Shown in pieces: positions 23,982 through 49,385 of a stretch of DNA of 64,000 nt (position 1 is the stretch's first letter; each line of letters starts with the position of its first letter). This stretch comes from an uncultured Bacteroidota bacterium (GTDB taxonomy: Bacteria; Bacteroidota; Bacteroidia; Chitinophagales; Chitinophagaceae). The notes below the pieces were generated by a model. It was not told the DNA's origin, did no database searches, and saw only the letters and a list, made by a program, of their open reading frames with translations. The position numbers and the translations under genes were made by a program. The stretch is taken from positions 1-64,000 of the forward strand of contig CAILLK010000157.1 of assembly GCA_903835005.1 (NCBI GenBank), given 5' to 3'.

Positions 23982-24662
23982 ATGAGCACATTTGGCATCA
24001 TATCAGAAGGTCCAAGCGACCAGATAATTATTCGCAATATACTTGTCGGTTATTTCAGTGATCCAGACATATCATTGCAGCCATTGCAACCTTCAACTGA
24101 TGCAACAGATATAGCCGATATAAGGGGTCATGGAGGATGGATGAATGTATTTGAGTACTGCAAATCAGATTTTATTGTAGGAGCTTTTGAGCAAAATGAC
24201 TTTGTTATCATACAGATAGACACAGACAGTTGTGAAGAAATAAACTTTGATGTAAGCAGAAGAAATGCAGATGGATCTGTAAGCACGCCGGAAGAAATGA
24301 TTTTAAAAATACTGGCGAAGTTTGAACAGATATTTCTAAGCAATCATTCCGATAAATATGGGATTTTCAAAAACAGGATATTGTATGCAATCTGCGTGGA
24401 AGAAATAGAATGTTGGCTATTACCACTCTATCATACTGACCATAAAAAAGAAGCAACTTTTGGTTGTATTAATAAATTAAACCCCCGACTACTGGAAGAG
24501 TTCAAAGTATATATAGATAAGAGCAATAAATCCATTACACTTCCACATTATAGAAAATTCGCCAAGCCATTCTCAAAAAGAAAAAACATCGATAAGATAT
24601 ACAACGACAACTTCAGCCTGAAGATATTTTTAGATAATATAAACAAAGTCGTTGCGGATTAA
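23982..24662 (+). CDS. Putative TOPRIM-like nuclease partner of the AAA ATPase
   Basis: 226 residues, starting immediately after the ATPase stop. Features seen: GIISEGPSD at 5-13 (a TOPRIM motif-1-like Glu9), VIIQIDTDSCEE around 75-86 with the Asp80-x-Asp82 pair, and VEEIECWLLPLY near 140, a motif type shared by the DUF4276/RloB/OLD TOPRIM-like groups. These fit a metal-dependent nuclease or effector. The family itself was not recognised. Placement next to the ATPase suggests that the ATPase senses or restrains it. Like the ATPase gene it is AT-rich, consistent with acquisition by transfer. Confidence 0.6.
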   Translation: MSTFGIISEGPSDQIIIRNILVGYFSDPDISLQPLQPSTDATDIADIRGHGGWMNVFEYCKSDFIVGAFEQNDFVIIQIDTDSCEEINFDVSRRNADGSVSTPEEMILKILAKFEQIFLSNHSDKYGIFKNRILYAICVEEIECWLLPLYHTDHKKEATFGCINKLNPRLLEEFKVYIDKSNKSITLPHYRKFAKPFSKRKNIDKIYNDNFSLKIFLDNINKVVAD

Positions 24663-29942: not shown

Positions 29943-31079
29943 ATGAAAAGGATAAAAAAACAGACTATTGAATCATTGGTTGCAGAGATACTGCAAACAA
30001 CTCTGTTTTTTCAAAACCAGGCGCAAAAACAAGTCAATATTGCGCTAACCCTGAGAAACTGGGCCATAGGCCACTATCTTTTTGAGTATGAACAGAATGG
30101 CAGCGACAGGGCCGAATATGGAGAACAGCTTTATAAGAATATATCCCGAAGACTTGCCCATTCAGGATTAAGAGGATTATCGTTTACCACTCTCCATCTT
30201 TGCAAGCAATTTTACCTGGCATATCCTCAAATTGTTCAGACAGTGTCTGAACAATACGGGTTAAATAAATTTAAAATATCAAAATCGGATTCCGATAAAA
30301 ATCTGTCACGCAAAAAGATTATTCAGACACCGTCTGAACAATTTAGAACAGCCCCGGACCTGTTAATTAACAGGCTGAGTTTTTCTCATTTCATAGAACT
30401 TCTGAAGACGGAGGGACTGAAAAGAACTTTTTATGAAACAGAAGCATTAAAGAACAGCTGGTCGGTCCGTGATTTACAGCGTGCTGTAAACAGTATGCTT
30501 TATGAGCGTACAGGGCTTAGCACAAAGAAAAAAGCAACTATCAGGAAGCAACCAAAAAGCAAATCGCCGGAATCAATATCCGAATTGATCCGGGATCCTT
30601 ACTTACTGGAGTTTTTAGGTCTTGAAGAAAAACATGAATACACTGAACAAGAACTTGAACAAGCAATCATAGACCATTTGCAATCTTTTCTTATTGAATT
30701 GGGCAGAGGTTTTTGTTTTGAAGCCCGGCAAAGGAGAATTACATTCGACAATAAGCATTACAGGATAGACCTTGTTTTCTATCACCGCATATTGAAATGC
30801 CATGTACTGATAGATCTTAAAGTTGGCGAGTTTGACCATGCAGATGCAGGGCAAATGAATGTGTACCTGAATTATTTCAAAGAAAACGAAATGGCAGATG
30901 GCGACAAACCACCCATAGGTATTATTTTATGTGCAAATAAAAACGAAAACCTGGCGCGATATGCTACTACAGGCCTGCCGCAAAAAGTATTTGTATCAAA
31001 ATACCTGGTAAACTTACCGAGTGAAACCCAACTGATAAACATCATAAAAGCAGAACAAAAGAAACTGAATAAAGGATAA
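29943..31079 (+). CDS. DUF1016 (YhcG family) PD-(D/E)XK nuclease domain protein
   Basis: 378 residues. The N-terminal DUF1016 helical domain (ALTLRNWAIGHYLFEYEQ, LHLCKQFYLAYPQIVQT) and the C-terminal nuclease-like domain (YRIDLVFYHRILKCHVLIDL with a following KVG, GQMNVYLNYF, IGIILCA) are both complete. Family members are predicted DNA nucleases, often near restriction or mobile elements; their role is unclear. Between the domains lie two copies of QTxSEQ encoded by palindromic DNA. It begins 3 bp after the adaptor stop and ends 46 bp before the RND pump, so it interrupts an otherwise standard efflux operon. It is probably an insertion tolerated in the transcript. Confidence 0.88.
   Translation: MKRIKKQTIESLVAEILQTTLFFQNQAQKQVNIALTLRNWAIGHYLFEYEQNGSDRAEYGEQLYKNISRRLAHSGLRGLSFTTLHLCKQFYLAYPQIVQTVSEQYGLNKFKISKSDSDKNLSRKKIIQTPSEQFRTAPDLLINRLSFSHFIELLKTEGLKRTFYETEALKNSWSVRDLQRAVNSMLYERTGLSTKKKATIRKQPKSKSPESISELIRDPYLLEFLGLEEKHEYTEQELEQAIIDHLQSFLIELGRGFCFEARQRRITFDNKHYRIDLVFYHRILKCHVLIDLKVGEFDHADAGQMNVYLNYFKENEMADGDKPPIGIILCANKNENLARYATTGLPQKVFVSKYLVNLPSETQLINIIKAEQKKLNKG
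30232..30254. repeat. Perfect palindrome inside the DUF1016 gene, copy 1
   Basis: Arms TTGTTCAGACA and TGTCTGAACAA flank a single G. It encodes VQTVSEQ in frame. A diverged copy lies 65 bp downstream. Confidence 0.7.
30319..30341. repeat. Near-perfect palindrome inside the DUF1016 gene, copy 2
   Basis: Arms TTATTCAGAC and GTCTGAACAA (one mismatch) flank ACC. It encodes IQTPSEQ in the same frame as copy 1, in the linker between the two domains. Confidence 0.65.
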
Positions 31080-34258: not shown

Positions 34259-35644
34259 ATGACTTTTATATCACTCCAGTTCCTGGTCTTCTTCATGGTG
34301 GTAACACTTTGGTTTTTCAGATTGAAAAACCAGAATGGACGCATATGGTTGCTGCTTATTGCCAGTTGCTATTTTTATATGTCCTTTATACCAGAGTATA
34401 TCCTGATTCTGGGTGGAACTATTATTGTTGATTACTTCGCTGGTATACAGATTGAAAAAAGTGAAGGCAGCAACCGTAAATTCTGGTTGGTGCTGAGTAT
34501 TATTGCCAATATCGGTACCCTTGCAGTATTTAAATACTACAACTTTTTTATCGACAATATTCATACAGGTTTTCTGTTTTTCGGGAAACCACTTCAGCTG
34601 CAATTGTTAAAAATGGCATTGCCTATAGGGCTCTCATTTCACACTTTCCAGGCACTGAGCTATACTATTGAAGTATATCGCAGAAAGCAACCTGCCGAAA
34701 GGAATTTTGTTGTTTATGCCCTGTATGTAATGTTCTATCCTCAATTGGTGGCCGGCCCTATTGAGCGGCCACAGAATGTAATACCACAGCTTAAGGAGTT
34801 CAGGCCCTATAACTGGGATAATGTAAAAGAAGGGCTGGCGCGAATGTGTTGGGGATTTTTTAAGAAAGTGGTCATAGCCGACAGGCTTGCAATGGTTGTT
34901 GAGCGTACCTTCGGGCATACCGCCGAAACTTCATCTGCTGCGTTGTTTATCGGCGCGGTATTTTATTCATTCCAGATATACTGCGATTTTTCAGGCTACT
35001 CAGATATTGCTTTGGGCGCTGCAAAAGTGATGAACATCCGTTTGATGGAAAATTTCAAACAACCTTATTTATCCGGCAGTCTCAGCGAATTCTGGACCAG
35101 GTGGCACATATCCCTCTCTACCTGGTTTCGCGATTATTTATATATACCACTCGGCGGAAACAGAAAAGGAGAATGGAGGAGACGTGTGAATATTATGGTG
35201 GTATTCCTGCTCAGCGGGCTGTGGCACGGCGCTAACTGGACTTTTATTATCTGGGGATTGCTTCATGGGCTATTTGTATTGATATTAGTCAGTAAGATCA
35301 ATACAGGGAATTCTGCAATACGGAAAATCTTCAGTGTTTTATTCAATTTCATTGTTGTTACCTTTTTGTGGATATTTTTCCGTGCAGAAAATCTTGCCGC
35401 TGCATGGATATATATTAAATCGATCTGCTCTTTCAGAGGTGGTTCAAATTTTATCACATTAAGCCCCGCCGAATTTATTTTCTCATTACTCGTTATTATG
35501 ATAATGTTATTGCGCGAAAAATACCTGCCCCGGCATATTATCAGCCAGAACAGCCGTTTTTGGATTTACCTTTTCAGCATGGTCATTATCTGTTATTTCT
35601 TTGGCGTGTTTAAAGAAAATCAATTTATTTACTTCCAGTTTTAG
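34259..35644 (+). CDS. MBOAT family O-acyltransferase (AlgI/PatA-like)
   Basis: 461 residues with about 10-12 membrane segments. MBOAT proteins move acyl groups, usually acetyl, across the inner membrane for O-acylation of polysaccharides or peptidoglycan. Recognised motifs: GLSFHTFQALSY, YPQLVAGPIER, FWTRWHISLSTWFRDYLYIP with His283, and LLSGLWHGANW with the catalytic His323. It is directly followed (3 bp gap) by two AlgX/AlgJ-like SGNH genes, the usual partners that complete transfer in the periplasm. It starts at an ATG a few bases after a promoter box. Confidence 0.93.
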   Translation: MTFISLQFLVFFMVVTLWFFRLKNQNGRIWLLLIASCYFYMSFIPEYILILGGTIIVDYFAGIQIEKSEGSNRKFWLVLSIIANIGTLAVFKYYNFFIDNIHTGFLFFGKPLQLQLLKMALPIGLSFHTFQALSYTIEVYRRKQPAERNFVVYALYVMFYPQLVAGPIERPQNVIPQLKEFRPYNWDNVKEGLARMCWGFFKKVVIADRLAMVVERTFGHTAETSSAALFIGAVFYSFQIYCDFSGYSDIALGAAKVMNIRLMENFKQPYLSGSLSEFWTRWHISLSTWFRDYLYIPLGGNRKGEWRRRVNIMVVFLLSGLWHGANWTFIIWGLLHGLFVLILVSKINTGNSAIRKIFSVLFNFIVVTFLWIFFRAENLAAAWIYIKSICSFRGGSNFITLSPAEFIFSLLVIMIMLLREKYLPRHIISQNSRFWIYLFSMVIICYFFGVFKENQFIYFQF

Positions 35645-35647
35645 GTT

Positions 35648-36709
35648 ATGATAAAGCGATTTCTGAGTTGTTTTTTTATTTTATTTGGTATAGCCCTGCT
35701 TTATAGTTCTACATCCAGGAAACTGATGTCTTTTTTTAAAGTAGCAAAAGATAATAATAGCTGGTGGGGGGAATTTCAACTGACTAAAGGAGACCTTCTG
35801 GAATTGTCGCACCTTGATTTTATCCATAAACTGAATACCCAACCTCAAAATAACTTAAAAGAATTTACCCATTCGCTCATTCCGGCAAAATATAATTTAT
35901 ATTTATTGGGAGACAGTTATATCTGGGGTTTGAACAAATCAAACTTTGATGGACTAACAGATTATCACTCAATAGATTTTTATGGCATAAATTCCTTTCA
36001 TTTAGACACAGCAAATAAGAATGCACTTATTATAGAGATATCTGAACGATTTATCAGGGAAACTATGGATCATAATCAGGTAACAGCATGTTTTTATGAT
36101 TCCTTAAAAGGGAAAGACAGCGAAAATGGCAGTAATAATACAAGGAGTGCGCCAGGCAAAGACCATACTATACTGGATTATTTTTCTTCAATTACTTTGT
36201 TTAATAAATACATTAATCAGAATCTCGAGTTCAATCTCTTTACCTATAATTTTATGTTGCCTCTTTTTGAAACAAAAGCGGCAATCAATTACTATTTGTT
36301 TGGCAGGGCTTCGGGAGATGCAATTCTATCTGATGACGAGAATTTTTTATTTTTAAAGGAAACAGCAGTTGACAATGGACCTAAAAGTTCTTTTTCAAAA
36401 ATTACCAGTAAAGAAATCACAACTATAGTTCACAATCTGAATGCACTAGATATTTATTATGAAAGTTGCGGGTTTAGCAAAGTATACCTATCCATTATTC
36501 CCAATCCTGTAACGATTATGCAACCCATCGGCTACAATAATCTTATACCTTTGATTCAAAATGACCCGCACCTCAACATGCCTGTCATTGATATTTATTC
36601 CATATTCAAAAATAATCATGATGTATATTACTTACCCGGAGATACCCATTGGAACAATAAGGGAAAACAACTTTGGGTTGACCTGGTAAATAAAACCTTA
36701 CGGAACTAA
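35648..36709 (+). CDS. SGNH/AlgX-like periplasmic acyltransferase, paralog 1
   Basis: 353 residues with one N-terminal membrane anchor (about 4-20). The SGNH-type block I motif YLLGDSY gives Ser90, and the C-terminal GDTHWNNKG gives Asp332 and His334; both are the pattern of AlgX, AlgJ and DltD-type O-acetyl transferases and esterases. It probably accepts acyl groups from the preceding MBOAT protein and passes them to a glycan. It shares most of its length with the next gene, including identical positions of Ser90, Asp332 and His334, so the two arose by duplication. The base composition is AT-richer than that of its neighbours. Confidence 0.75.
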   Translation: MIKRFLSCFFILFGIALLYSSTSRKLMSFFKVAKDNNSWWGEFQLTKGDLLELSHLDFIHKLNTQPQNNLKEFTHSLIPAKYNLYLLGDSYIWGLNKSNFDGLTDYHSIDFYGINSFHLDTANKNALIIEISERFIRETMDHNQVTACFYDSLKGKDSENGSNNTRSAPGKDHTILDYFSSITLFNKYINQNLEFNLFTYNFMLPLFETKAAINYYLFGRASGDAILSDDENFLFLKETAVDNGPKSSFSKITSKEITTIVHNLNALDIYYESCGFSKVYLSIIPNPVTIMQPIGYNNLIPLIQNDPHLNMPVIDIYSIFKNNHDVYYLPGDTHWNNKGKQLWVDLVNKTLRN

Positions 36710-36719
36710 AATTCATAAT

Positions 36720-37793
36720 ATGGCTAAAAGATTTTTAAGTTTCTTTTTCATCATTTTCGGCCTGCTTGTCCTGTGGATGTCTACATCGCGCTCCTGCATG
36801 CAATTTGTAGCTGAGCACAGAGATAACAATACCTGGTACGGGTCATACCAGATGCTCCATGGCGACCTAGTAAGCTTATGTTACCTGGATATGGTTAAGC
36901 GCTTTAATCCGCCCCGCGAAAAAATCATCTTTAAGAAGCCGGCCAATACACTTACACACAACATTAATCTTTATCTGCATGGCGACAGTTATACTTATCA
37001 GGTACCTGATTCTGTCTTTTCAGGGATAAACAAACTGTACTGGATTGATCGTAATCATGGCATGAATTATCATCTGGACAGTACAAAAAGGAACATTCTC
37101 CTAATTGAGGTTTCGGAGCGTTACCTGCGCCCCTATTTCTCAGGTTTGCAAATGCTGGATGAGGTATGTGATTCCATGGTAAAAAAGAAGAAGCTGGCTC
37201 TTGGTAAATATGGTACCTACAACCAGATGATTTATGCCTCAGTTCTGCAAGGTTTTAATCTCAACGATCTGTTCAATAAATATATTAATCAGAACCTTCA
37301 GTGCAACTTATTTAATTATAACTTCATGATGCCTCTTTTTGAATCGAAAGCGGCACTGAATTATTATGCTTTCAACAGGGCATCCGGCGATGTGGTCATT
37401 TCAAAAGACAGGAACTTTCTTTTCCTTAAAGAAACTGTTTCGCTTACCGATCCAGGGAGTTCCTATATACCACTTACGCCTGATGACATTACCCGGCTGG
37501 TCAATAATTTCAATGCTATCTATGACCATTATAAGTCAGCTGGTTTCTCAGAAGTTTACTTATCGGCCATACCCAATTCTGCTACAATAATGCAGAACCA
37601 TGGATACAATAATCTAATACCCCTTATTCAAAACAATCCCAAACTGAGAATGAAAATTATAGATGTCTATTCACCTTTTCTTAAATCAACAAAGGTATTA
37701 TACCAGCCATGCGATACACACTGGAACAACGATGGTAAGCTGTTTTGGCTCGATCTTGTCAATGAAAAACTGCAAAACCCGGATACAAACTGA
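36720..37793 (+). CDS. SGNH/AlgX-like periplasmic acyltransferase, paralog 2
   Basis: 357 residues. Same layout as the preceding gene: N-terminal anchor (about 5-20), GDSY with Ser90, and DTHWNNDG with Asp332 and His334. Shared blocks include YNFMMPLFESKAALNYY, FNRASGD and NHGYNNLIPLIQN. Both copies keep the catalytic residues, so both are probably active and may differ in acceptor or position on the glycan. It starts 10 bp after paralog 1 and precedes the first GT-C-like gene by about 96 bp. Confidence 0.75.
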   Translation: MAKRFLSFFFIIFGLLVLWMSTSRSCMQFVAEHRDNNTWYGSYQMLHGDLVSLCYLDMVKRFNPPREKIIFKKPANTLTHNINLYLHGDSYTYQVPDSVFSGINKLYWIDRNHGMNYHLDSTKRNILLIEVSERYLRPYFSGLQMLDEVCDSMVKKKKLALGKYGTYNQMIYASVLQGFNLNDLFNKYINQNLQCNLFNYNFMMPLFESKAALNYYAFNRASGDVVISKDRNFLFLKETVSLTDPGSSYIPLTPDDITRLVNNFNAIYDHYKSAGFSEVYLSAIPNSATIMQNHGYNNLIPLIQNNPKLRMKIIDVYSPFLKSTKVLYQPCDTHWNNDGKLFWLDLVNEKLQNPDTN

Positions 37794-37889: not shown

Positions 37890-39575
37890 TTGAAAACAAA
37901 AATTTCATACAGCCAACTGATATCCCAATTTCTTAATAACCATTCACTGGTATTCAGCTGCTTTTGCATACTAAGTTTTATGCTGTACCTCCCGGCCGCA
38001 AAGGCAGGGCTGGTAGGCGATATGCCCTACCTCATTGACTCAATCAATAATATCAGTTTCTTTGATTTTCTGAACAATAAAGGCGGCACAGCGCTTTATC
38101 AGGTAGCTTCCCTGAATTTTTATATTCTCATAAAACTATTCGGAACCAACTTATGGCTCTGGTTTCTGTTTTATATCACTATGCATTCCTTTATTGGAAT
38201 CCTGTTGTATAAATTTTTCAGCAGGTTGCTTACCGATTCCGGAATTGATAATGCCCTGCCTATTTCGTTTATGGCTATTGTCTTGTTCCTTGTTTCTCCT
38301 CATGCATCTGAAGTGGTGGTATGGAAAGCATCCAATCACCATTCAGTGGCAACTGCCATAATTTTCATCATCTTACTCTATGTTCAGAAATTCATTAAAA
38401 ACCCCAAGCCCGGCTATGCTATAATTACCACCTGCCTGTTTTTTTACTCCTTATTTTCACACGAGTTTTTTTACCTCACTCCCTGGTTTGTACTTGTATT
38501 AATTTGCTTTTACGCCATTGCGCTGGGGTATGATAAAAAAAAAATCGGGAAATCGTTCCTGTATTTCTTCCTACCGCTGCTGCTGCTGTTTATTTTCCAC
38601 CTGGTATTGCTGCAGCTGATAAAACATACCTACATCTCCCATTTTGGCAAACTTGAAAAGATGCCCGTCTTCTACTACCTAGATAAACCATTGAAATATC
38701 TGTTCCATGTGCTATTCTTTGGCCGTTATTTCCCCGGTTACCGGAGAAGTAATATCTATGCCATCTGCGAAGCAAGAGGGATCATTATCAGCTTTTACAG
38801 CCTGTTATTGTGCATCTGGACGTACGTTGCTTTACGGTTCAGGAAGGTTGGAATGAAAGTGAAAATTCTGGCGCTGCTCTCTGTTTACCTGATAATTATT
38901 TTTCTGTTCCTATCCCCTGTTGCTTTTGCCGATACCATGCTGGTAACCTATGACAGGTATGTATACCCTTCACTTGGTTTTGCTGCTTTATTTATTGTTC
39001 TGCTGATCAGTTGCATACCTTATAAGGGCTTAAAAGTGGCTTTGATTGCTGGTTACGCCTTGATAAATATTTGCCTGACAATAAAAGTAAACATTTACTG
39101 GAAACAATCTGCCTATATAGTAAAGCGCCTGATAAATGACTTTCCCGATCCTGGCAATAAAATTGTACTGCTGCTCAACCTGCCCGACGACCTTCATGGT
39201 GTACCTATGATATCGGCGGAGCATGATGGCCGCTTTAAAAAAATGGAAAATGCGCTGACCGCTCACAGGTACACCAACAAAATTTATGATGTTGCCGCCT
39301 ATAATATGATTTCAACGGACGATGGTGCGCATGTAATTATAGCCAACGACAGTACCATCCATGTCACACTGAATCAATGGGGCACCTGGTGGCTGCATGG
39401 CATGTGGGGCGCCGAGAGTTATGCTACAGAAGACTTTGATGTGAATATGATTGATGAGGGACATTGGTATGAGCTCAAACTCAAGCATACTGCAAATCAA
39501 TATTTATTATTGTACCAGGCCGGAGCCCAATGGAAAGTGGTGGACCTGAACAAGAAGAATATCGACCAGTATTAA
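37890..39575 (+). CDS. GT-C-like polytopic membrane protein, tandem paralog 1 of 5
   Basis: 561 residues with about 10-12 membrane segments and a C-terminal soluble domain of about 115 residues. The start is TTG; the first internal Met (residue 31) is already inside the first membrane helix. GT-C signs: an Asp (Asp44, AGLVGDM) at the mouth of the first extracytoplasmic loop, LYKFFSRLL after a TM with His, SEVVVWKASNHH and the YDRYVY block near 355, comparable to the ERYxY block of TMTC/PMT-type glycosyltransferases. The C-terminal domain carries DGAHVIIANDS, TLNQWGTWW, GHWYELKLKH and QYLLLYQ. The probable role is moving sugar from a lipid carrier onto an extracytoplasmic acceptor; this is inference. 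Confidence 0.6.
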   Translation: MKTKISYSQLISQFLNNHSLVFSCFCILSFMLYLPAAKAGLVGDMPYLIDSINNISFFDFLNNKGGTALYQVASLNFYILIKLFGTNLWLWFLFYITMHSFIGILLYKFFSRLLTDSGIDNALPISFMAIVLFLVSPHASEVVVWKASNHHSVATAIIFIILLYVQKFIKNPKPGYAIITTCLFFYSLFSHEFFYLTPWFVLVLICFYAIALGYDKKKIGKSFLYFFLPLLLLFIFHLVLLQLIKHTYISHFGKLEKMPVFYYLDKPLKYLFHVLFFGRYFPGYRRSNIYAICEARGIIISFYSLLLCIWTYVALRFRKVGMKVKILALLSVYLIIIFLFLSPVAFADTMLVTYDRYVYPSLGFAALFIVLLISCIPYKGLKVALIAGYALINICLTIKVNIYWKQSAYIVKRLINDFPDPGNKIVLLLNLPDDLHGVPMISAEHDGRFKKMENALTAHRYTNKIYDVAAYNMISTDDGAHVIIANDSTIHVTLNQWGTWWLHGMWGAESYATEDFDVNMIDEGHWYELKLKHTANQYLLLYQAGAQWKVVDLNKKNIDQY

Positions 39576-39626
39576 TCCTGATTAAGGCAACCTATCTTTG
39601 TTACTACAACTAACCCGCATTAAATT

Positions 39627-41315
39627 TTGACGGCAAGCCCCGATTATATCATTAAGCGACAGTTACAGAGCAGAAACCTGCTCTTATTTGCTGCTTATTG
39701 GGTAGTTCTGTTCGTTCTTTATCTGCCTGCAGCTAATGCAGGCAGAGTTGGTGATTTCCCTGGCTGGGTCACATTCCTTAATGCCAATAATTTCATTGAT
39801 TATATCAACCGCAAGGGATCAGGCATACCCAGTTTATATCAGTTTACGCAAACTGTCACCTGGTGTTTCTACAGGTTGTTCGGGGCAAATGCCTGGCTAT
39901 GGCATCTGATTTACCTCACCCTGCAGGCGCTGAATGCTTTTTTACTGTATACCTTTTTCAGTAAGCTGTTCAGCAACGCGCATGTCCGCAATGCGGCTAT
40001 TGCTGCATTTACCGGCGCTCTGCTGTTTTGCGTTTCTCCCTATATATCAGAAGTGGTGGTGTGGGAGCCGTCTTTTCATTATTTACTTGGTTTGCTGCTG
40101 ATGCTGATTGTGCTCATATGCTCCCAGAACTACCTGATTACACAGCGAATAAAGTTTGCATGGTGGGGTGGTATCGTGTTTTTTCTCTCCTCCTACTCGC
40201 TCGAGGTATTTTACCTTACGCCACTGTTTGTCATTTCGTTGGCACTTTTTTACAGAGTAGTTCCGGGTGTTGAGCAAAAATCATTCAAAAACCTGATTAT
40301 TTATTTTACTATACCGCAGATCCTTATTTTCCTGCTGCATCTCACCTTATTGCGAATATTGTACCATTCGGGTGTTGCGCATGTTGGTAATGTCGCTATT
40401 CAGGTCAATAATATCAATTTGTCCAAGTCATTAAAATACCTGTTTCACATTGTCTTTTTAGGCCGGTTTTTTCCTGCCGCTACCAGAGCCAGAGTTTACC
40501 AATTTAGCGAAACGGCGGCCAGTCTCTGGCTTTTTTATGGCCTGCTTTTGATAGCAATTCTGTTCTTAATATCCAGGTACCGCCGGATGGGCACGCAATC
40601 ATTAACAATTGTATTATTGACTGCATGGGTTGGCTGCTCACTTGGGCTTATACTTCCGTTGTGGTTTCCGGATACGGGTCTGGTAATTTACGACCGCTAT
40701 ACTTATGTGCTCGATTCATTTCTGTTCATGTTTCTCTCCTTAATTATCGGCTCCTTTTGCAACCGCACCGCATTTTTTATTATCGTTTTCATATACTCAT
40801 TAGTCAACATAAGGTTCACTCACAAAGTCAATACCTACTGGCAGCAATCTGCCCATATTGTTAATAACCTGGTTGCCACATTCCCGAATGACCCAACAAA
40901 AAAAGTACTGCTACTCAACTTGCCCGAATGCCTTGTTGGTGTGCAGATGGTGGGCACCCGTGATGATGGTGAGTTCAGGATGATGTATAATTCCATCAGG
41001 CCCGATAAGATCACCAATCTGGTTTATGATGTAGAAGCATTTTATATGAGCAGCCCTGGTGACGGGGCTCATGTAAATGTTGTTAATGACAGCACTATGA
41101 AAGTAACACTTAACCAGTGGGGAACCTGGTGGCTTTATTATGGCTATGGCGCTACCAATTATGAGAATGCAGATTATAAAGTAATTATGCGCGACCAGGG
41201 CCACTGGTATGACCTAGTTTTGAAACATCCGGCCAATGAATACCTGATTTTATATACCGTTGCTGATAAGTGGAAGAAAGTAGACTGGAATATAAAAGGT
41301 ACCGACCAGAATTAG
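39627..41315 (+). CDS. GT-C-like polytopic membrane protein, tandem paralog 2 of 5
   Basis: 562 residues, same architecture as paralog 1 and 51 bp behind it. TTG start. The loop Asp is Asp43 (AGRVGDF). Conserved blocks: SEVVVWEPSFHY, SLEVFYLTPLF, YLFHIVFLGRFFP, YDRYTY, then the C-terminal DGAHVNVVNDS, TLNQWGTWW and GHWYDLVLKHP. Every motif shared by the family is intact, so it is likely functional. Confidence 0.6.
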   Translation: MTASPDYIIKRQLQSRNLLLFAAYWVVLFVLYLPAANAGRVGDFPGWVTFLNANNFIDYINRKGSGIPSLYQFTQTVTWCFYRLFGANAWLWHLIYLTLQALNAFLLYTFFSKLFSNAHVRNAAIAAFTGALLFCVSPYISEVVVWEPSFHYLLGLLLMLIVLICSQNYLITQRIKFAWWGGIVFFLSSYSLEVFYLTPLFVISLALFYRVVPGVEQKSFKNLIIYFTIPQILIFLLHLTLLRILYHSGVAHVGNVAIQVNNINLSKSLKYLFHIVFLGRFFPAATRARVYQFSETAASLWLFYGLLLIAILFLISRYRRMGTQSLTIVLLTAWVGCSLGLILPLWFPDTGLVIYDRYTYVLDSFLFMFLSLIIGSFCNRTAFFIIVFIYSLVNIRFTHKVNTYWQQSAHIVNNLVATFPNDPTKKVLLLNLPECLVGVQMVGTRDDGEFRMMYNSIRPDKITNLVYDVEAFYMSSPGDGAHVNVVNDSTMKVTLNQWGTWWLYYGYGATNYENADYKVIMRDQGHWYDLVLKHPANEYLILYTVADKWKKVDWNIKGTDQN

Positions 41316-41345
41316 CCTATATTTGTTACATAATCTTTTTAATTC

Positions 41346-43043
41346 TTGCATAGCTCAGATTCAACAAAAAAAATAAAGTTATCCATGATATTCCGGAATA
41401 GTAATTTCGGGATTTTCATTATTCTCTGGCTCCTAACCTGTATCATTTACCTTCCTGCTGCAAAAGCCGGGTGGGTACTGGATTCAGCCGGCTGGCTGAA
41501 TAATATACGGAACCTTAAATTCTGGCAATACGTCAATAATACCCAATCCACAATTCCCAGTCTTTACCAGTTTACTCAGCTCACCACTTTCTTAATTTAC
41601 AAATTAATCAATGCAAATCCCTATGCCTGGCATTTGCTTATGATAACGCTGCATACACTGAATTGCTTTCTTTTTTTCACAATCTGCTCCAGGCTTTTTG
41701 AAGATTCAGGCATCAAAAACGGAAAGAATATCGCATTTGCAGGTATGCTTTTATATACAGCCTGTCCGCACCTATCCGAGGTTTTAGTCTGGGAGTCTGC
41801 CTTTCATTACATTCAAGGTTTTCTGCTTATCCTGCTGATATTATTATTTACCCAGCGCTACTTTCATACTACGCTGAAAAAATATGCCTGGATATCAGGT
41901 ATACTCTATTTTTTTTCCACCTATTCGCTCGAAATATTCTACCTCACACCATGGTTTGTTTTGATACTTTCCCTTTATTATCGCCATGTTCTTGGATACG
42001 ATAAAAAAGTTTTTAAAAAGGTAATATACAATTTTGTTGTTCCGCAACTATTGATGTTTGCCTTACACCTTATCATATTGAGGTCAGTTTACAACGGGCA
42101 AATGGCTCATCTCGGCCCTAATATATGGCAGCCATTTTCAACCTATATTTGCAAACCGCCAAGATATCTCTTTCACGTTCTGTTTTTAGGCCGGTTCTTT
42201 CCATTAGAAACCCGCAGAATAGTCTATCTCGCTGTTGGCTCAAATGCCGGGCTCATCATTTTCTACAACATTTTTGTGCTGGTATGCCTGCATATCATTT
42301 CAAAATTCCACACCATGCAGATTAAGGGAAAAATCAGTGTCCTGTTTTTTGCCTGGGTTATTGTCAGCGTATCTATACTGCTGCCCCTTGCATTCCCTGA
42401 TATGCTTTTATTGTATTATGACCGGTATACCTATTTCCTCGATGCATTCGTATATATGCTGCTTGCTTTCCTGGTAAGTTACATCCCGGCTAAGTATGTT
42501 GGCGCAATTTTACTGGCAATTTATGGCTTGATCAATGTGTATTTTACAATCAAACTGAATCTGTACTGGAAACATTCCACCTATATTGATAACCGCCTTC
42601 TTAAAGATTTTCCCAACCCGGGAAATAAAACTGTCCTGCTTCTGAACCTGCCCGAATGTTATAATGGTATACCCATGATCGGAGCGGAAAAAGAAAGCCA
42701 GTTCAAAATGCTGTATAAATTATTTGTCAATAAAGATTATTCAGGCAAAATGTATGATGTGGCTGCCTACAACATGATTACCAGGGAAGATGGAGCACAT
42801 GTATATGTGCACAACGACAGCTTAATTACAGTAACCCTGAATCAGTGGGGCACATGGTGGTGGTATGCGCAATATGGCGGCTTCAGTTACGAAAACGAAG
42901 ATTACAAGCTGGAAATGAAGGACATGGGCCATTGGTTTGACTTAAAACTGAAACACCCTGCCGATCAGTACTTACTGTTATTCCAGCAGGGAGATCAGTG
43001 GAAGACAGTAAATATGAAGAAAAAAAATGAACAGCAATATTAA
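41346..43043 (+). CDS. GT-C-like polytopic membrane protein, tandem paralog 3 of 5
   Basis: 565 residues, TTG start, 30 bp after paralog 2. Loop Asp46 (AGWVLDS). Conserved blocks: HLLMITLHTLNCFLF, SEVLVWESAFHY, SLEIFYLTPWF, YLFHVLFLGRFFP, YDRYTYFLDAF, DGAHVYVHNDS, TLNQWGTWWWY, GHWFDLKLKHP. The LH-T-LN helix after the first loop is like the corresponding HLxNxLLHxLN helix of TMTC-type mannosyltransferases. Its 3' end overlaps paralog 4 by 17 bp if that gene starts at 43027. Confidence 0.6.
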   Translation: MHSSDSTKKIKLSMIFRNSNFGIFIILWLLTCIIYLPAAKAGWVLDSAGWLNNIRNLKFWQYVNNTQSTIPSLYQFTQLTTFLIYKLINANPYAWHLLMITLHTLNCFLFFTICSRLFEDSGIKNGKNIAFAGMLLYTACPHLSEVLVWESAFHYIQGFLLILLILLFTQRYFHTTLKKYAWISGILYFFSTYSLEIFYLTPWFVLILSLYYRHVLGYDKKVFKKVIYNFVVPQLLMFALHLIILRSVYNGQMAHLGPNIWQPFSTYICKPPRYLFHVLFLGRFFPLETRRIVYLAVGSNAGLIIFYNIFVLVCLHIISKFHTMQIKGKISVLFFAWVIVSVSILLPLAFPDMLLLYYDRYTYFLDAFVYMLLAFLVSYIPAKYVGAILLAIYGLINVYFTIKLNLYWKHSTYIDNRLLKDFPNPGNKTVLLLNLPECYNGIPMIGAEKESQFKMLYKLFVNKDYSGKMYDVAAYNMITREDGAHVYVHNDSLITVTLNQWGTWWWYAQYGGFSYENEDYKLEMKDMGHWFDLKLKHPADQYLLLFQQGDQWKTVNMKKKNEQQY

Positions 43044-44748
43044 TGCCGGAAGAATGAATACAGCTGCTCCAATAAAATTTTCCTTTCCACCAGGCAAAGC
43101 CAGTGTGAAGCCTGTTTATGTATTTGTGGCATTATGGCTGATGTTGTTCCTGTTATACCTTCCGGCGGTGAATGGTGGCTGGGTATCAGACAGCATTGAG
43201 CACCTGGAGAAAGTAATACATGGTTCATTCCTGGATTTTATCAATGCCAAAGAATCACGGGGCAACAGCTATCAGTTTGCCCGCAGTATTGATTATTTAT
43301 TGTACCATTTGTTCGGAATGAATGTCTGGTTGTGGCTGATGCTGTTTATATCACTCCAGGCCGCCAATGCAACACTGCTGTTTGTATTGTGCACAAAATT
43401 GTTCGCTGATTCAGGTGCAAAGCATGGCATTACTATTGCTGCAGGTGCTGTAATACTGTTCTGTATCTGCCCGCATATTTCCGAGGTAATGCTTTGGAAA
43501 GCTGCTTATCATTACCTGCAGGCCATGCTTATCTTGTTGTGCATATTGTTGTGGGTACAGAAGTTTCAGGCTTCGCAGCGCGCAAGTTATGCCTGGTATT
43601 CAGCCTTCCTGTTCATCTTGTCTGTTCTATCCGATGAATTTTACTTCCTTACACCCTTATTTATTTTTACCTTAATAGCCTATTACCGGGTAGCGCTTGG
43701 CTACGACAAAACTGTTTTTAAAAAATCACTGCTGTATTTTTTACTTCCGGTTATTATAATGCTGTTTTTGCATATCCTGTCAATCAGCTTTTCATCCGGT
43801 TCTTATGCGGCTGATCTGGGAGATGAGGCCAATCAGCCACTCTCAGGATATTTACGTAAGCCTCCATTATATTTGTTTCATATTATTTTTTTCGGCCGTT
43901 TTTTCTCCCAGGATTTCCGGCAACACATCTATGATCTTGCAGTTGCAAAAAAGGGATTAGTGCTCGTTTATGGGCTGTTTGCTGCTCTGTGCATTTACAT
44001 TATGGTCCGGTTTAAATATTTCAAGCCGGGCGGTAAAGTCACAACACTCCTGCTTACCTGGATGCTCTTTGCCATGGCAATGGTTTGCCCGGTCTGGTTT
44101 CCGGATATCCAGACTGTTCAGTTCGACAGATATACCTATTTTATGCTACCCTTTATTTATCTAATAACAACCTTTTTCCTGGTCCATATTAAATTCAGAG
44201 AACTGGCAATAACCATCTGGACAATGTATGCCTTTATCAATATTTATTTCACCTTAAAGGAAAATAACGACTGGCGGCATTCCAGCCATATAATTAATAA
44301 ACTGATCAGCGACTTTCCCGTAGCAGCCGATAATAAAATTATTCTGCTGCTTAATGTACCTGCCAATATGAATGGAGTACCCATGGTAGGCCCATTTCTG
44401 CATTTTTCATTTAAGCAAATGTATAATCTTGAAAATGTGCAGCAGATTACCAACCCAGTGTATGAAGTAGTATCGTATAATATGACCGGTCCCGGTGATG
44501 GTGCGCATGTAATGGTCATCAACGACAGTATGCTGCACGTAACGCTGAATCAGTGGGCTACCTGGTGGTGGTATGGTATGAGGGGCGCATTCAGCTATGA
44601 GAATGAATACTACAAAGTGAATATGATAGATGCAGGCCATTGGTATGAACTGACATTAAAGCATCCTGCAGGGCAATACCTGCTTTTGTACCAGGTAGGC
44701 GATAAATGGAAAAAAATAGACTGGACTTTAAGGTGTGATCAATTTTGA
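43027..44748 (+). CDS. GT-C-like polytopic membrane protein, tandem paralog 4 of 5
   Basis: 573 residues from the ATG at 43027, which lies inside the end of paralog 3; an ATG at 43054 (11 bp after the paralog 3 stop) is an alternative that removes nine residues. Loop Asp55 (GGWVSDS). Conserved blocks: SEVMLWKAAYHY, SDEFYFLTPLF, YLFHIIFFGRFFS, FDRYTYFMLPF, DGAHVMVINDS, TLNQWATWWWY, GHWYELTLKHP. The Phe in FDRYTY and the Ala in QWATWW are small departures from the other copies. Confidence 0.6.
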   Translation: MNSNINAGRMNTAAPIKFSFPPGKASVKPVYVFVALWLMLFLLYLPAVNGGWVSDSIEHLEKVIHGSFLDFINAKESRGNSYQFARSIDYLLYHLFGMNVWLWLMLFISLQAANATLLFVLCTKLFADSGAKHGITIAAGAVILFCICPHISEVMLWKAAYHYLQAMLILLCILLWVQKFQASQRASYAWYSAFLFILSVLSDEFYFLTPLFIFTLIAYYRVALGYDKTVFKKSLLYFLLPVIIMLFLHILSISFSSGSYAADLGDEANQPLSGYLRKPPLYLFHIIFFGRFFSQDFRQHIYDLAVAKKGLVLVYGLFAALCIYIMVRFKYFKPGGKVTTLLLTWMLFAMAMVCPVWFPDIQTVQFDRYTYFMLPFIYLITTFFLVHIKFRELAITIWTMYAFINIYFTLKENNDWRHSSHIINKLISDFPVAADNKIILLLNVPANMNGVPMVGPFLHFSFKQMYNLENVQQITNPVYEVVSYNMTGPGDGAHVMVINDSMLHVTLNQWATWWWYGMRGAFSYENEYYKVNMIDAGHWYELTLKHPAGQYLLLYQVGDKWKKIDWTLRCDQF

Positions 44749-44783
44749 TAAATTTTGTTGTAAACAAGGGAAAATAAATATTA

Positions 44784-46466
44784 ATGAACAATTCAACCAC
44801 AACAGTAATCAACCGTATCAGTGCCAGATGGTTCTTCCTGGTTTTCTGGTTGCTTACTTTTGTTATCTATATAGCTACTGCCAGGGCGGGCTGGGTGATA
44901 GATGGCGTTGGGTTTCTTTACAATATGAAGCACCAGGGTTTTTGGGATTTCATCAACCGAACTTATTCCCAGGATCAGAGTTTTTACCAGGTACTAACCC
45001 TGCATTACTATATATTCTATAAGATATGGGGCTTAAATCCCTGGATGTGGGGCTTATTGTATGTCACTCTTCATGCTTTGAATGTTTATCTTTTGTTCCT
45101 GATAAGCAAAAATATCCTGTCTGATTCAGGGGTTGGCAACAGCAGAGTCATTGCCTTAGCTGGCTCATTGCTTTTCATTGTTGCTCCTCATATCTCAGAG
45201 ATATTGGTATGCCGGGCTTATTATCATTACCTGCAGTGTTTCTTTTTTATACTGCTTATTTTATATTGGGCGCAAAAATACCAGCACAATCCACGCCCAG
45301 GTTACATTGTTGGTTCATTAGCGCTGTTTGCTTTATCCGTATTTACTTTAGAGGTTTTCTATATCATACCCATTTTGGTTGTGGCCATAGCCTTGTACTA
45401 CCATTTTGTATTGGGGATAGAAAAAAAGATTTTCAGAAAAACAATTCTCTACTTTGTTATTGGTCAGGTCTTGTTGCTGATTGTATATTTCCTGGCTCTT
45501 TTTGCCAGGTTCAGACATCTGACTCCGCACAAAATTGAAATAAATCAGGGGCCTCTCGATTATTTAACGAAGCTTCCGAAATACTTTTTCCATATCGTTT
45601 TACTAGGTCGTTATTTTTCGGCTGAGGTGAAGGATAAGGTATATGCAATGTGCGGCTCCGGGTCTGTAATAATTATATTTTACGGGTTAATTGTTTATTA
45701 CTTTGTTTATTTTATTTCCCGTTTCAATACCATTACTAATTATGGCAAAGCTATATTTCTGTTTTTTATTCTCGCTTTAATTAATGTTTCCTTCCTGACC
45801 CCGCTGCCTTTCCCCGATTCTTCTCTGGAGGTATTCTACGACAGATACACCTATTTTACCGATGCCTTTGTCTATATCCTCCTGGCAATGATAGTTGTTA
45901 AGTACGTAAAAAACAAATACATCATCATCGGGCTTTTTTGTGTTTATGTAGATTTTAACCTCTATTTTACTATACAGGTAAATACTTACTGGATCCAATC
46001 CGATGCTATTAATAACCGGCTTTTGCGGAATTTCCCAGATTGTGGCAATAAAACAGTGCTCTTGTTAAATAACCCGGAAAACATGAATGGCGCGCCCATG
46101 ATAGGCGCACAACCGGAAGGCATTTTTAAGGGTATGCTCGAAATATATACGGGCAGGACTGTACCTAATACAATTTACGATGTGGCATCGTACAATATGA
46201 ACGCTGATTATAACGGCGCACATGTTACCGTAATCAACGATACCACATTGATGGTAGTATTAAATCATGGAGGCACATGGTGGTGGTATGAGGGTCATGG
46301 GGCGGTAAATTATGAGACACCAGACTATAAAACTGATTTCAAAACGGTTGGTATGCGCTATGATATTACCCTTAAGCGCCCTGCCGGTAACTATCTTATC
46401 CTCTACAGTGTAGGAGATAAATGGAAGACAGTGGATATGAGCCTGAAGAATAAACAACAGGATTAA
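44784..46466 (+). CDS. GT-C-like polytopic membrane protein, tandem paralog 5 of 5 (diverged)
   Basis: 560 residues, ATG start, 36 bp after paralog 4. Loop Asp40 (AGWVIDG) and YDRYTYFTDAF are kept, but the C-terminal domain has drifted: NGAHVTVINDT instead of DGAHV, LNHGGTWWWY instead of LNQWGTWW, and GMRYDITLKRP instead of GHWYELKLKHP. SEILVCRAYYHY replaces the Trp of SEVxVW. The membrane part appears intact, so it may have a different acceptor or partner. It is the last gene of the cluster. Confidence 0.58.
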   Translation: MNNSTTTVINRISARWFFLVFWLLTFVIYIATARAGWVIDGVGFLYNMKHQGFWDFINRTYSQDQSFYQVLTLHYYIFYKIWGLNPWMWGLLYVTLHALNVYLLFLISKNILSDSGVGNSRVIALAGSLLFIVAPHISEILVCRAYYHYLQCFFFILLILYWAQKYQHNPRPGYIVGSLALFALSVFTLEVFYIIPILVVAIALYYHFVLGIEKKIFRKTILYFVIGQVLLLIVYFLALFARFRHLTPHKIEINQGPLDYLTKLPKYFFHIVLLGRYFSAEVKDKVYAMCGSGSVIIIFYGLIVYYFVYFISRFNTITNYGKAIFLFFILALINVSFLTPLPFPDSSLEVFYDRYTYFTDAFVYILLAMIVVKYVKNKYIIIGLFCVYVDFNLYFTIQVNTYWIQSDAINNRLLRNFPDCGNKTVLLLNNPENMNGAPMIGAQPEGIFKGMLEIYTGRTVPNTIYDVASYNMNADYNGAHVTVINDTTLMVVLNHGGTWWWYEGHGAVNYETPDYKTDFKTVGMRYDITLKRPAGNYLILYSVGDKWKTVDMSLKNKQQD

Positions 46467-46518: not shown

Positions 46519-47862
46519 TTGAAAGTATCAAACGAACATAAACTAGAGCGGGGCCTCTCCCTCGGCCAGGCCACAGCTATCAATATGATAGATATGGTAG
46601 GCATTGGGCCGTTTGTTACCATGTCCATCATAGTAGGGTTTATGCATGGGCCGGGCAGCGTCTTTGCGTGGCTGCTGGGCGCCTTGCTGGCCTATATGGA
46701 TGGCATGGTATGGTCTGAACTGGGCGCTAAGTGGCCGGAGGCTGGTGGCAGCTATGTATTTCTCCGCAAGCTTTACGGAGATATGAAGCTGGGCAAACTC
46801 ATGTCCTTCCTGTTTATCTGGCAAACTACTATACAGGCACCCCTGGTAATAGCCAGTGGCGCTATCGGCTTCTCCAAATACTTTTCCTACCTCATTCCCC
46901 TCACCGATATCCAGAAGAAAATGGTAAGCGGCACACTGGTAATATTATTGGTAGCCTTGCTTTATCGTAATATCAAAAGCATAGGCAAGATATCAGTGGT
47001 GCTGTGGATCATTACAGGTGGCACTATCCTCTGGCTCATTGGTTCAGGATTCGGACATTTCAATGCGCATCAGGCATTCAACTGGCACTTCGAGGGTTTT
47101 GATGGCAGCTTGCTGCTGTTTGCTGCATTGGGTCGGTCTTCGCTCAATGCTGTTTATTCTTACCTGGGTTATTACAATGTCTGTCACCTGGGGGCAGAGA
47201 TCAAAGACCCTGCGCGCAATATTCCCCGCGCCATTATTTATTCTATCACCGGTATAGCCATCCTTTACCTGGGCATGCAAACCATGATCCTCGGTGTACT
47301 GCCATGGGAAACGGTTGCTAATTCCGACTTTGTAGCCAGCCTCTATTTCGAGACCATCTACAACAGCCATCTGGTGGGCCAGGTAGCCACATTTCTGATA
47401 CTCATTATCGCATTGGCATCCTTGTTCTCAGCCATCCTTGGTTACTCCCGCATCCCTTACGCCGCCGCCCTCAATGGCGATTTCTTCAGCATATTCGGGC
47501 GGGTGCATCCCCGGCACAACTTCCCGCACATTTCCCTTCTGGCAATCGGGGGCATGGGCTTTATCTTCAGTTTATTGTTCCGGCTGGGCGATGTCATAAC
47601 CGCCATCCTCATGATGCGCATCCTTATCCAGTTTGTATCTCAGTCGGTCGGTGTTATCATCTGGCATTACCGGAAGCCGCACGAAGACCGCCCGTTCAAA
47701 ATGCCCCTCTTCCCAATCCCTGCTATATTGAGCATACTCATCTGGATGTTTATATTTTTTAGTAACGACCCTAAGTTTATTTTGGGTGCATTAGTAATTA
47801 TCGGAAGTGGCTTGGTGGTTTATTATGTGCGGGATAGATTGACATATAGTAACCGGATATGA
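46519..47862 (+). CDS. APC superfamily amino-acid permease
   Basis: 447 residues, about 12 membrane segments. Typical N-terminal LSLGQATAINMIDMVGIGPF (TM1 with the unwound Gly motif) and MDGMVWSELGAKWPEAGGSY after TM2, matching amino-acid/polyamine antiporters; the substrate is unknown. The frame opens at a TTG (46519). Upstream, ATG at 46499 opens MDSNPPI and stops at a TGA that overlaps this TTG, so either the short leader is translated and coupled, or one base is missing or extra and the real start is 46499. Its stop overlaps the FRG gene start by 4 bp (ATGA). Confidence 0.88.
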   Translation: MKVSNEHKLERGLSLGQATAINMIDMVGIGPFVTMSIIVGFMHGPGSVFAWLLGALLAYMDGMVWSELGAKWPEAGGSYVFLRKLYGDMKLGKLMSFLFIWQTTIQAPLVIASGAIGFSKYFSYLIPLTDIQKKMVSGTLVILLVALLYRNIKSIGKISVVLWIITGGTILWLIGSGFGHFNAHQAFNWHFEGFDGSLLLFAALGRSSLNAVYSYLGYYNVCHLGAEIKDPARNIPRAIIYSITGIAILYLGMQTMILGVLPWETVANSDFVASLYFETIYNSHLVGQVATFLILIIALASLFSAILGYSRIPYAAALNGDFFSIFGRVHPRHNFPHISLLAIGGMGFIFSLLFRLGDVITAILMMRILIQFVSQSVGVIIWHYRKPHEDRPFKMPLFPIPAILSILIWMFIFFSNDPKFILGALVIIGSGLVVYYVRDRLTYSNRI

Positions 47863-49385
47863 AAATTAATCTTGACGATACAGACATTTTTGTAAAAGAT
47901 GTTTTTGAGGCAGTGAAAGTCGCAAAATGTCTAAAGGAAACAGGTAGGTGCGATTTATTTAGAGGGCAGATTGAAAGCTATCCACTTGTCCCTGGCTTCT
48001 TTCGATCTAATACTAACCAAGAAACGGAAATAAATCGTTTAAATAAATTCGCTGGCTGGATTGAATCAATTCCAGAATTGAAGTCATTTCACGGTAATGT
48101 TGATCAGATAACTGCAGTTGCTCAGCACTATGGAATGAAAACGCATTTTCTTGATTTTACCAGAAATCCAGAAATTGCGGGTTTTTTTGCTTCAGATGGG
48201 GACAAAAGAGAAGACATAAAATACAGTACGATTGTGTGTGCTAATCAGGAAGTATTTACAAAATCGTGGGCGGGGATAAAATATAAAGATTCTGGAATTT
48301 TAACGAGAATAGTTGATATCGACATTCGTAATTTATGGCGTCTTCATTCTCAAGACGGAGTATTTATTGATGTTAGAATACCCCCAGATACTCTTGAGGC
48401 TTTTTCATTTTTTAGACACATATATTTCCCATACACAGTTCAATATGATTTGGTAAGTGACGATAAAATTTATCCATTGGAAAAGAGCCATTTAGAAATA
48501 TTGATCGATGAATACTTTTATCTTGAATTTTGGGAAAATGAAATGAAAGAGCAAACAAAAAATTATGACGTAGTTATTGATTTTTCACAATCAAAAGAAG
48601 TTTTTGGTAGAGCAAATGCGTTCGTCTCAAATGCTCTTCCAAATCATCATCCAAGTTGGAATATAGAACATATTGAGGAATGGTTGAAGGAGCCAAACGA
48701 ACAGTATCAACATATATTTTCTGGTATTTCAATTACAATTGTAATCAACAGAAATTTGTCTATCCGTGAACTTGCAAACTACATAAAGGGGGTAATTCAT
48801 GATATATTAAGTACAAATAGTGAGTACAGAGCAAAAAAATTAGGGTGGAATATTATTGATCAGGATGGAAAATTGGTGACAGTTGATAAGAGACAACTGG
48901 AGATTTTGGACGATGATACGTACCCTCAAATTGAATGTGGTCAATATGTCTCTATTTTGTGGGAGGGGTTAAGGAGGTTGCCATATTCTGATGATCAAAT
49001 TGCAAAGTGTATTGCTAATTATATTGTTTTTGGAATTTTTGACGAGATAGGTATTTCCGACCTGTTAGGAGAGCATACCGGAGTTGAATTCACTACGGGT
49101 ACCTCAATCAATAGCGGTTATGTTTCTGATGAGTCATTTTTGACATGTTTACGGCCTGATTTTATGGATTTACTAATCGACGAAGAGCGAGTGAAAATAA
49201 CCAATTCGGAAATCAAACTTTATAATATATTAATGATATTGAGTGACCCCAGAAGCTTATTTGAGTTTACATCGTTTGTTGATTTATTTGTTCAGCAAAT
49301 AATACCAATCCAGGCTTTGTACAAGCGGGAAAATGATGTAATAATATTTTCGCCGGTTAGGCTGGAAATTTTCGGTTTGCTTTGA
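47859..49385 (+). CDS. FRG-domain protein of unknown function
   Basis: 508 residues. The FRG domain (PF08867) is seen as DLFRGQ at 32-37 and AQHYGMKTHFLDFTRNPEIAGFFA at about 88-111, both strongly conserved in the family. The rest (about 200-508) was not recognised. FRG proteins are common in accessory and defence-associated loci; their biochemical activity is not settled. The gene is much AT-richer than the permease it overlaps by 4 bp, which points to acquisition. It faces the antitoxin-like gene tail to tail. Confidence 0.75.
   Translation: MKINLDDTDIFVKDVFEAVKVAKCLKETGRCDLFRGQIESYPLVPGFFRSNTNQETEINRLNKFAGWIESIPELKSFHGNVDQITAVAQHYGMKTHFLDFTRNPEIAGFFASDGDKREDIKYSTIVCANQEVFTKSWAGIKYKDSGILTRIVDIDIRNLWRLHSQDGVFIDVRIPPDTLEAFSFFRHIYFPYTVQYDLVSDDKIYPLEKSHLEILIDEYFYLEFWENEMKEQTKNYDVVIDFSQSKEVFGRANAFVSNALPNHHPSWNIEHIEEWLKEPNEQYQHIFSGISITIVINRNLSIRELANYIKGVIHDILSTNSEYRAKKLGWNIIDQDGKLVTVDKRQLEILDDDTYPQIECGQYVSILWEGLRRLPYSDDQIAKCIANYIVFGIFDEIGISDLLGEHTGVEFTTGTSINSGYVSDESFLTCLRPDFMDLLIDEERVKITNSEIKLYNILMILSDPRSLFEFTSFVDLFVQQIIPIQALYKRENDVIIFSPVRLEIFGLL

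Follow-up and report, generated by a model that had tools for sequence, protein, structure and literature searches.

What do five adjacent genes for similar membrane proteins do when they stand directly behind a set of acylation genes? The question is raised by positions 37890-46466 of a 64,000-nucleotide (nt) stretch, here called the window, which forms positions 1 to 64,000 of contig CAILLK010000157.1 (assembly GCA_903835005.1) from an uncultured bacterium of the Chitinophagaceae. An earlier note, made from the sequence alone, had likened the encoded proteins to glycosyltransferases of the GT-C type. Our results support the conclusion that the five genes encode proteins of the GT-C fold and are kin to the PMT clan, on the basis of fold matches of a predicted structure and of profile-profile homology in which catalytic motifs align. 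We think it rather probable that these GT-C enzymes move sugars from polyprenyl-phosphate to an envelope glycan that is also acylated by MBOAT and SGNH proteins, each paralog having its own specificity. The support computed here consists of homology, the fold match, conserved active-site residues, ortholog groups and gene linkage.

The five genes were found, as had been claimed, to be adjacent, collinear plus-strand open reading frames (ORFs) of 560-573 amino acids (aa) with about 40% identity over their full length. Copy 4 is 37-40% identical to the other copies over almost the whole length, with E values of 2.8e-119 to 9.1e-148, and the likeness is therefore not due to chance. A sixth paralog lies elsewhere in the same genome, denoted G000 (G000:C24:10574-12220). 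The GxVxD motif of the first loop and the DRYxY block are present in all five copies. The other motifs listed in the earlier note hold for the set as a whole, but not in detail: copy 5 departs most (SEILVC, EVFYIIP, YFFH, NGAHV, NDT, LNHGGTWW and GMRYDI), and copies 2 to 4 carry some variants, namely SEVMLW, EFYFLTP and LNQWATWW in copy 4 and, at the GHWYEL position, GHWYDL in copy 2 and GHWFDL in copy 3. Likewise, the proposed 10-12 membrane helices agree with an AlphaFold model and a comparison with TMTC proteins, both of which fit about 11, but a simple hydropathy scan gave 10, 9, 7, 10 and 10 segments in copies 1 to 5. The ratio of nonsynonymous to synonymous substitution was 0.09 for copy 1 and 0.07 for copy 2; no value was obtained for copies 3-5 because synonymous sites were saturated.

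The structure of copy 3 was predicted from six sequences, with a predicted local distance difference test score (pLDDT) of 69.8 and a predicted TM-score (pTM) of 0.68. In a Foldseek search of the PDB with this model, the 21 best matches were all GT-C chains (OST/PglB, ALG12, ArnT, PimE, DPY19 and PMT), with probabilities of 0.89-1.00 and E values of 7.5e-4 to 0.26, two of them below 0.001. The next match had a probability of 0.07, and the other 29 among the best 50 of 154 matches stayed at or below 0.20. Thus the comparison with PMT, TMTC and ArnT that the earlier note had proposed returned GT-C chains first, ArnT and PMT among them.

Profile-profile homology points the same way. Fifteen loci with weak matches to the family were obtained and ten of their proteins were scanned with Pfam. 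Five of the ten contain TPR repeats and PMT_2 (over the cut-off in two), and four of these five also give a TMTC_DUF1736 signal, always below the cut-off. Among the other five, TMTC_DUF1736 gives a weak signal in one, without TPR or PMT_2, and all three are absent from the remaining four. With hhalign, a profile of 82 family representatives matched a group of 11 relatives of the TPR/PMT_2 type over residues 19-425 (E 2.8e-29) and the remaining four relatives with E 1.8e-29. Chance likeness between membrane proteins was rejected as an explanation of the match to TPR proteins, as five control groups gave E values of 0.16 (YfhO), 0.20 (MgtE), 0.33 (MBOAT), 0.35 (RND) and 0.64 (amino acid permease). 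Since the family profile itself had retrieved the TPR-type relatives, the E value is not blind; their Pfam labels are independent of it. YfhO is itself described as a GT-C enzyme (PMC8035078) and went unmatched, so the test is specific, not sensitive.

The aligned positions include those at which TMTC proteins carry their catalytic motifs, whose roles are taken from PMC7801869. Conservation over the 82 representatives is 0.99 for D46, 0.96 for E145, 0.98 for E196 and 1.00 for R360 (copy 3 numbering), and in the model D46, the acidic residue expected in the first extracytoplasmic loop of a GT-C enzyme, follows the first long helix and precedes two short ones. At the position of the TMTC KE lysine the family has Leu, His, Asp or Asn. 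A Pfam scan of 32 diverse members found TPR in none and DUF1736 in none. Because the TPR repeats and the complete DD and KE motifs are missing, we do not regard the family as a member of TMTC; the kinship with PMT and TMTC and the GT-C fold claimed at the outset are borne out by the fold matches and the aligned motifs.

Further evidence comes from the history of the copies. A quick maximum-likelihood tree included 99 rows from the genus, each of 500 aa or more, together with 5 from outside it; shorter and identical rows had been dropped. Eight groups were recognized (A 5, B 16, C 17, D 9, E 16, F 28, G 4 and H 3 rows; one row unassigned), and support by the SH-like approximate likelihood ratio test was 96-100 for groups A-F, with 26 of 101 inner branches under 80. 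Mean identity is 0.47-0.64 within groups versus 0.39-0.43 between them. Copies 1-5 of the window fall into A, B, C, D and E in that order; three other loci (L071, L077 and L081; loci are numbered with the prefix L) carry A, B, C and E, and L082 carries B, C, D and E. By these sequence comparisons, the copies form ortholog groups in a conserved order within the genus.

Among the 98 grouped rows, no substitution occurs at D46, P141, E145, H154, R283, D359 or R360; at E196, two of the 16 group E rows have Pro. Other positions differ by group. Position 45 is Gly in A, B, G and H and Ile in E; position 149 is Cys in 10 of 16 E rows; position 150 is Lys or Arg in 4/5 A, 9/9 D and 16/16 E rows and Glu in nearly all others; position 195 is His or Asp in 3/5 A and 6/9 D rows and Leu in most others; and position 255 is Arg in 27 of 28 F rows. 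Such group-specific residues beside the active site are plausibly what different specificities would look like, and are no proof of them. Together with the ortholog groups, they make the glycosylation machine with several specificities suggested in the earlier note plausible.

The C-terminal domain is nearer 140 residues than the 115 given earlier. Residues 420-565 of copy 3 were modeled with pLDDT 80.5 and pTM 0.81 as a small, mostly beta domain of eight short strands and two helices. Foldseek gave no significant PDB match for this model (best E 0.27, mostly Ig-like or GFP-like chains), and no fold was assigned. A C-terminal profile of 32 diverse copies reached PPR/TPR chains among PDB sequences at E values down to 4e-5 without a passing stretch, and this identity was rejected. 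The same profile matched in 13 of 395 class genomes and 3 of 395 phylum genomes, two sets that overlap and include the window's own genome. At 14 of the 17 matching loci examined, the family profile matches through the membrane domain, some of these loci being cut by contig ends. Of the other three, L132 ends at its contig edge, and the match in L144 (E 7.8e-4) stops inside the domain and was not matched again. The search thus found the domain mostly together with the membrane half, but at the third locus a 147-residue frame (L134:1342-1785) matches part of it (E 2.5e-6) with no membrane half nearby and no Pfam match. We take this frame to be a lipoprotein with an MSC-type lipobox. The C-terminal domain may therefore have a stand-alone relative, and its description as private is slightly weakened; the idea that it replaces the TPR part stands in that homology to the TPR proteins ends at residue 425. 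The domain would lie outside. Given its position and conserved aromatic residues, it probably helps to bind the acceptor, as has been proposed for additional domains that other GT-C enzymes carry (PMC8035078).

The acceptor is approached through the neighboring genes. As the earlier note had stated, an MBOAT gene and two SGNH-like genes lie immediately upstream of copy 1. From the MBOAT gene to copy 5 the intergenic distances are 3, 10, 96, 51, 30, -17 and 35 nt, so the row looks like one operon; a promoter scan gave chance level (58 found versus 51 expected). The window MBOAT protein has a C-terminal FXYXXF motif and both SGNH-like proteins have GDSY and DTHWN. MBOAT-SGNH pairs transfer an acyl group via the Tyr of this C-terminal motif and act on envelope polymers (PMC12148441). 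The MBOAT protein scored 147 bits with NCBIfam DltB, whose cut-off is 375; SGNH-like protein a had only a sub-threshold Pfam AlgX match (E 0.045), and no Pfam SGNH match was found for protein b. Motifs were counted in MBOAT proteins longer than 440 aa and SGNH-like proteins of at least 330 aa. FIYFQF occurs in the window protein and 19 others among the 21 listed MBOAT proteins, with FIYFRF in L093, and 26 of 35 SGNH-like proteins have both GDSY and DxHWN by pattern.

Using MBOAT and SGNH profiles seeded from the window, we surveyed the neighborhoods of family members. Co-occurrence held for cluster-type loci (groups A-E, G and H), where MBOAT and SGNH were each present in 22 of 30, but not for single-copy group F (MBOAT in 1/28, namely L093, where more than 7 kb separate it from the family gene; SGNH in 0/28) or out-of-genus loci (0/57 with either). 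Four of the eight cluster-type loci free of both come from short contigs, none longer than 6.1 kb (L157, L166, L168 and L169); a short contig does not explain L068, L084, L085 and L152. The linkage suggests a glycan acceptor. As a separate observation, an mgtE magnesium transporter gene lies directly upstream of the group F member in 15 of 28 loci (for example L075, L089, L091 and L092; Pfam on one).

Relatives outside the genus bear on the donor. In published systems, the sugar is first loaded onto polyprenyl phosphate by a GT2 enzyme; a flippase then moves this donor across the membrane, and on the outer side a GT-C enzyme transfers the sugar (PMC8035078, PMC11127046). GT2 genes account for 11 of 700 ORFs around 57 of the 58 out-of-genus loci; L201, whose family gene is absent from the called ORFs, was left out. 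Five GT2 genes are adjacent to the family gene and four are coupled directly upstream. Mere adjacency is weak evidence (P 0.06 when the seed is excluded); the notable feature is the coupling, as computed with L201 left aside. L201 is a fifth coupled case, in which the GT2 gene overlaps the start of the family gene. The Pfam GT2 match is above the cut-off in the four coupled genes and a divergent gene of L198, and just below it in L201. The coupled loci represent three genera (L098 and L184; L104 and L201; L102), and the overlap of 139 nt in L104 depends on the called starts. In the window's own genome (L229:5342-10123), a GT2 gene that is 43% identical to a coupled one is flanked by a PMT_2 gene on one side and by the gene of an unannotated 769-aa protein on the other. 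YfhO genes adjoin members in L078, L099 and L218.

Taken together, these findings lead us to propose that each GT-C enzyme would work on the outer side of the cytoplasmic membrane, where it would transfer a sugar from a polyprenyl-phosphate carrier to an acceptor. By homology, the loop Asp would serve catalysis or metal binding and Arg360 would hold the carrier phosphate, with the small extracytoplasmic C-terminal domain helping to bind the acceptor. The same envelope glycan would receive acyl groups from the MBOAT and SGNH proteins by way of an acyl-Tyr shuttle, and the paralogs would keep different specificities for sugar, linkage or position. We infer the donor, the acceptor, the specificities, the role of the C-terminal domain and the joint action with acylation from the evidence above.

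Several points weigh against this proposal. The family lacks two residues of the TMTC motifs, the KE Lys and the second DD Asp, and none of the 32 diverse members has a Pfam match above the cut-off. The full-length model of copy 3 is modest, with the stretches around D46 and D359-R360 under pLDDT 50, and TM-scores to the GT-C matches are low (0.27-0.41 by query). The window cluster has no GT2 or GtrA-type flippase gene; GtrA occurs in 2 of 6 genomes tested and is missing from the other 4, and the sole match in G000 is on another contig. Nine of the 35 SGNH-like proteins lack GDSY or DxHWN by pattern. The P values for GT2 coupling (hypergeometric, 0.0025 without the seed) and for SGNH in cluster-type versus single-copy loci (Fisher, 1e-9) treat related loci as independent. 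Finally, gene linkage need not mean a common substrate.

The separate lineages kept in related species, and their position behind the acylation genes, suggest that the five genes and the acylation set form a multi-enzyme kit for cell-surface decoration. More tentatively, up to five GT-C enzymes in fixed order may each add a different sugar or serve a different site, with a dedicated MBOAT-SGNH set acylating the same glycan and the C-terminal domain acting as a new acceptor-binding module; this we hold possible, if doubtful. If it is true, species keep different groups and the surface would vary from species to species.

Other acceptors have to be weighed against the envelope glycan. The five enzymes could, like PMT and TMTC, be protein O-glycosyltransferases, with secreted or periplasmic proteins as acceptors and the C-terminal domain replacing TPR in binding them. 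The PMT_2/TMTC-like TPR proteins among the sequence relatives and the PMT and OST chains among the structural matches fit this view, which we nevertheless consider unlikely: the MBOAT-SGNH linkage points to a glycan, and PMT_2 domains occur also in polymer-decorating GT-C enzymes (PMC8035078). Still less probable are glycolipid-modifying enzymes with a lipid acceptor, as for ArnT or PimE. Both are among the structural matches; a weak argument against a lipid acceptor is that MBOAT-SGNH pairs with the shuttle motif act on envelope polymers (PMC12148441). Reuse of the GT-C scaffold as a transporter, polymerase, ligase or structural membrane protein is very improbable, since the replacement of two TMTC motif residues and a glycosyltransferase activity that is only predicted are met by other catalytic positions nearly invariant over the 82 representatives and by GT2 genes coupled in several loci.

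Genome searches show how widely the family occurs. A search with copy 4 matched 39 of 60 genomes at E 1e-5 or better, the own genome counted; other genomes of the same genus gave a strong match (E 1e-101 or better) in 30 of 34 cases and two or more matches in 23 of 34. A five-copy profile matched 127 of 298 genomes of the order, 63 of them besides the own genome at E 1e-28 or better; the remaining matches are weaker and partial, frequently in frames of 600-730 aa. A genome-contig scan with a single protein gave one locus, and a viral-contig scan gave no relative. No match was retained in Pfam (five copies), NCBIfam (copies 1, 2, 4 and 5) or PHROGs (copies 1 and 4), and a PDB sequence search with copy 4 gave none. 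Weak matches to VP4 haemagglutinin, holin, DUF3112 and DUF6056 were judged to be chance, and LptG, from two PDB chains at E 0.16 and 0.5 for a 32-member profile, was rejected. Literature searches, at the level of titles and abstract openings, turned up no description of the family. The family thus recurs through one bacterial order without a Pfam or NCBIfam model among those searched.

Table 1. Positions of the gene row and of the residues and domains discussed
Feature	Position	Strand	Remarks
MBOAT O-acyltransferase	34259..35644	+	DltB/AlgI/PatA type; C-terminal FIYFQF; Pfam MBOAT E 2.2e-25
SGNH-like protein a	35648..36709	+	N-terminal hydrophobic stretch, GDSY, DTHWN; motifs by inspection
SGNH-like protein b	36720..37793	+	N-terminal hydrophobic stretch, GDSY, DTHWN; resembles protein a; motifs by inspection
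GT-C paralog 1	37890..39575	+	Ortholog group A, 561 aa
GT-C paralog 2	39627..41315	+	Ortholog group B, 562 aa
GT-C paralog 3	41346..43043	+	Ortholog group C, 565 aa; copy used for structure prediction
GT-C paralog 4	43027..44748	+	Ortholog group D, 573 aa; 17 nt overlap with copy 3
GT-C paralog 5	44784..46466	+	Ortholog group E, 560 aa; motifs most divergent
D46 of copy 3	41481..41483	+	First-loop Asp; aligned to first Asp of TMTC motif M1 (DD)
E145 of copy 3	41778..41780	+	TMTC M3 position (EL2 acidic)
E196 of copy 3	41931..41933	+	Glu of TMTC KE motif M4; Lys not kept
R360 of copy 3	42423..42425	+	In DRYxY; Arg of TMTC motif M7 (ERxxY)
C-terminal domain, copy 1	about 39153-39563		
C-terminal domain, copy 2	about 40893-41297		
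C-terminal domain, copy 3	42621..43040	+	
C-terminal domain, copy 4	about 44326-44727		
C-terminal domain, copy 5	about 46047-46460		

Copy 5 is followed by an amino acid permease gene and then by an FRG-domain gene (47859-49385; PADLOC PDC-S15) that shares its first 4 nt with the end of the permease gene. Upstream, a YhcG/DUF1016 nuclease gene (29943-31079; PADLOC PDC-S02) lies between HlyD-type adaptor and AcrB-type pump genes, and an AAA_21-type ATPase gene and a DUF4276-like gene occupy 22734-24662 (top PADLOC matches PDC-M31A and PDC-M31B). In L071, L080, L082, L083, L095 and L156, genes for a type III glutamine synthetase and a phosphopantetheinyl transferase adjoin the family genes or cluster (Pfam on L071); unlike loci of the L071 type, the window cluster follows the efflux and YhcG set. 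An unannotated membrane protein of 576-580 aa, with no Pfam match, is encoded in or beside several clusters (L077:5187-6926, L082:8764-10506 and L158:480-2210); its profile-profile E value with the family is 0.044, and it is possibly another GT-C protein.

The choice of sugar and acceptor by GT-C enzymes is called poorly understood in a review (PMC8035078), and the ortholog groups of one genus offer a natural series for studying it. Moreover, one gene row joins GT-C glycosylation and MBOAT-SGNH acylation. The family resembles TMTC-like and PMT_2 TPR proteins (PF13231, PF08409; human TMTC1-4) in its membrane domain (residues 19-425), loop Asp, EL2 Glu, EL3 Glu and EL5 Arg. Unlike TMTC, it has no TPR region and no DUF1736 or PMT_2 match, carries its own C-terminal domain, and has one Asp for DD and Leu, His, Asp or Asn for the KE Lys.

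ArnT (PDB 5ezm, 5f15) is similar in length and matches in GT-C fold. It has a periplasmic C-terminal domain. In contrast to this likeness, PDB searches gave no sequence match, and the C-terminal model of the family has no significant PDB match. Multi-component transmembrane glycosylation systems (Gtr, CsbB/YfhO, GT136) share with the family a GT-C enzyme, the GT2 gene coupled in some relatives and the YfhO gene beside three members. Those systems combine GT2, flippase and GT-C, whereas the window cluster is without GT2 and flippase, has up to five ortholog groups per row and is linked to MBOAT and SGNH genes. Similarly, the acylation set recalls the MBOAT-SGNH acyltransferases PatA/PatB, AlgI/AlgJ/AlgX and DltB/DltD in its C-terminal FXYXXF MBOAT protein and its SGNH-like proteins with GDS and DxH. 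It differs from them in that its SGNH-like proteins fall below the cut-off of any Pfam family and that its genes stand in a fixed row with GT-C genes.

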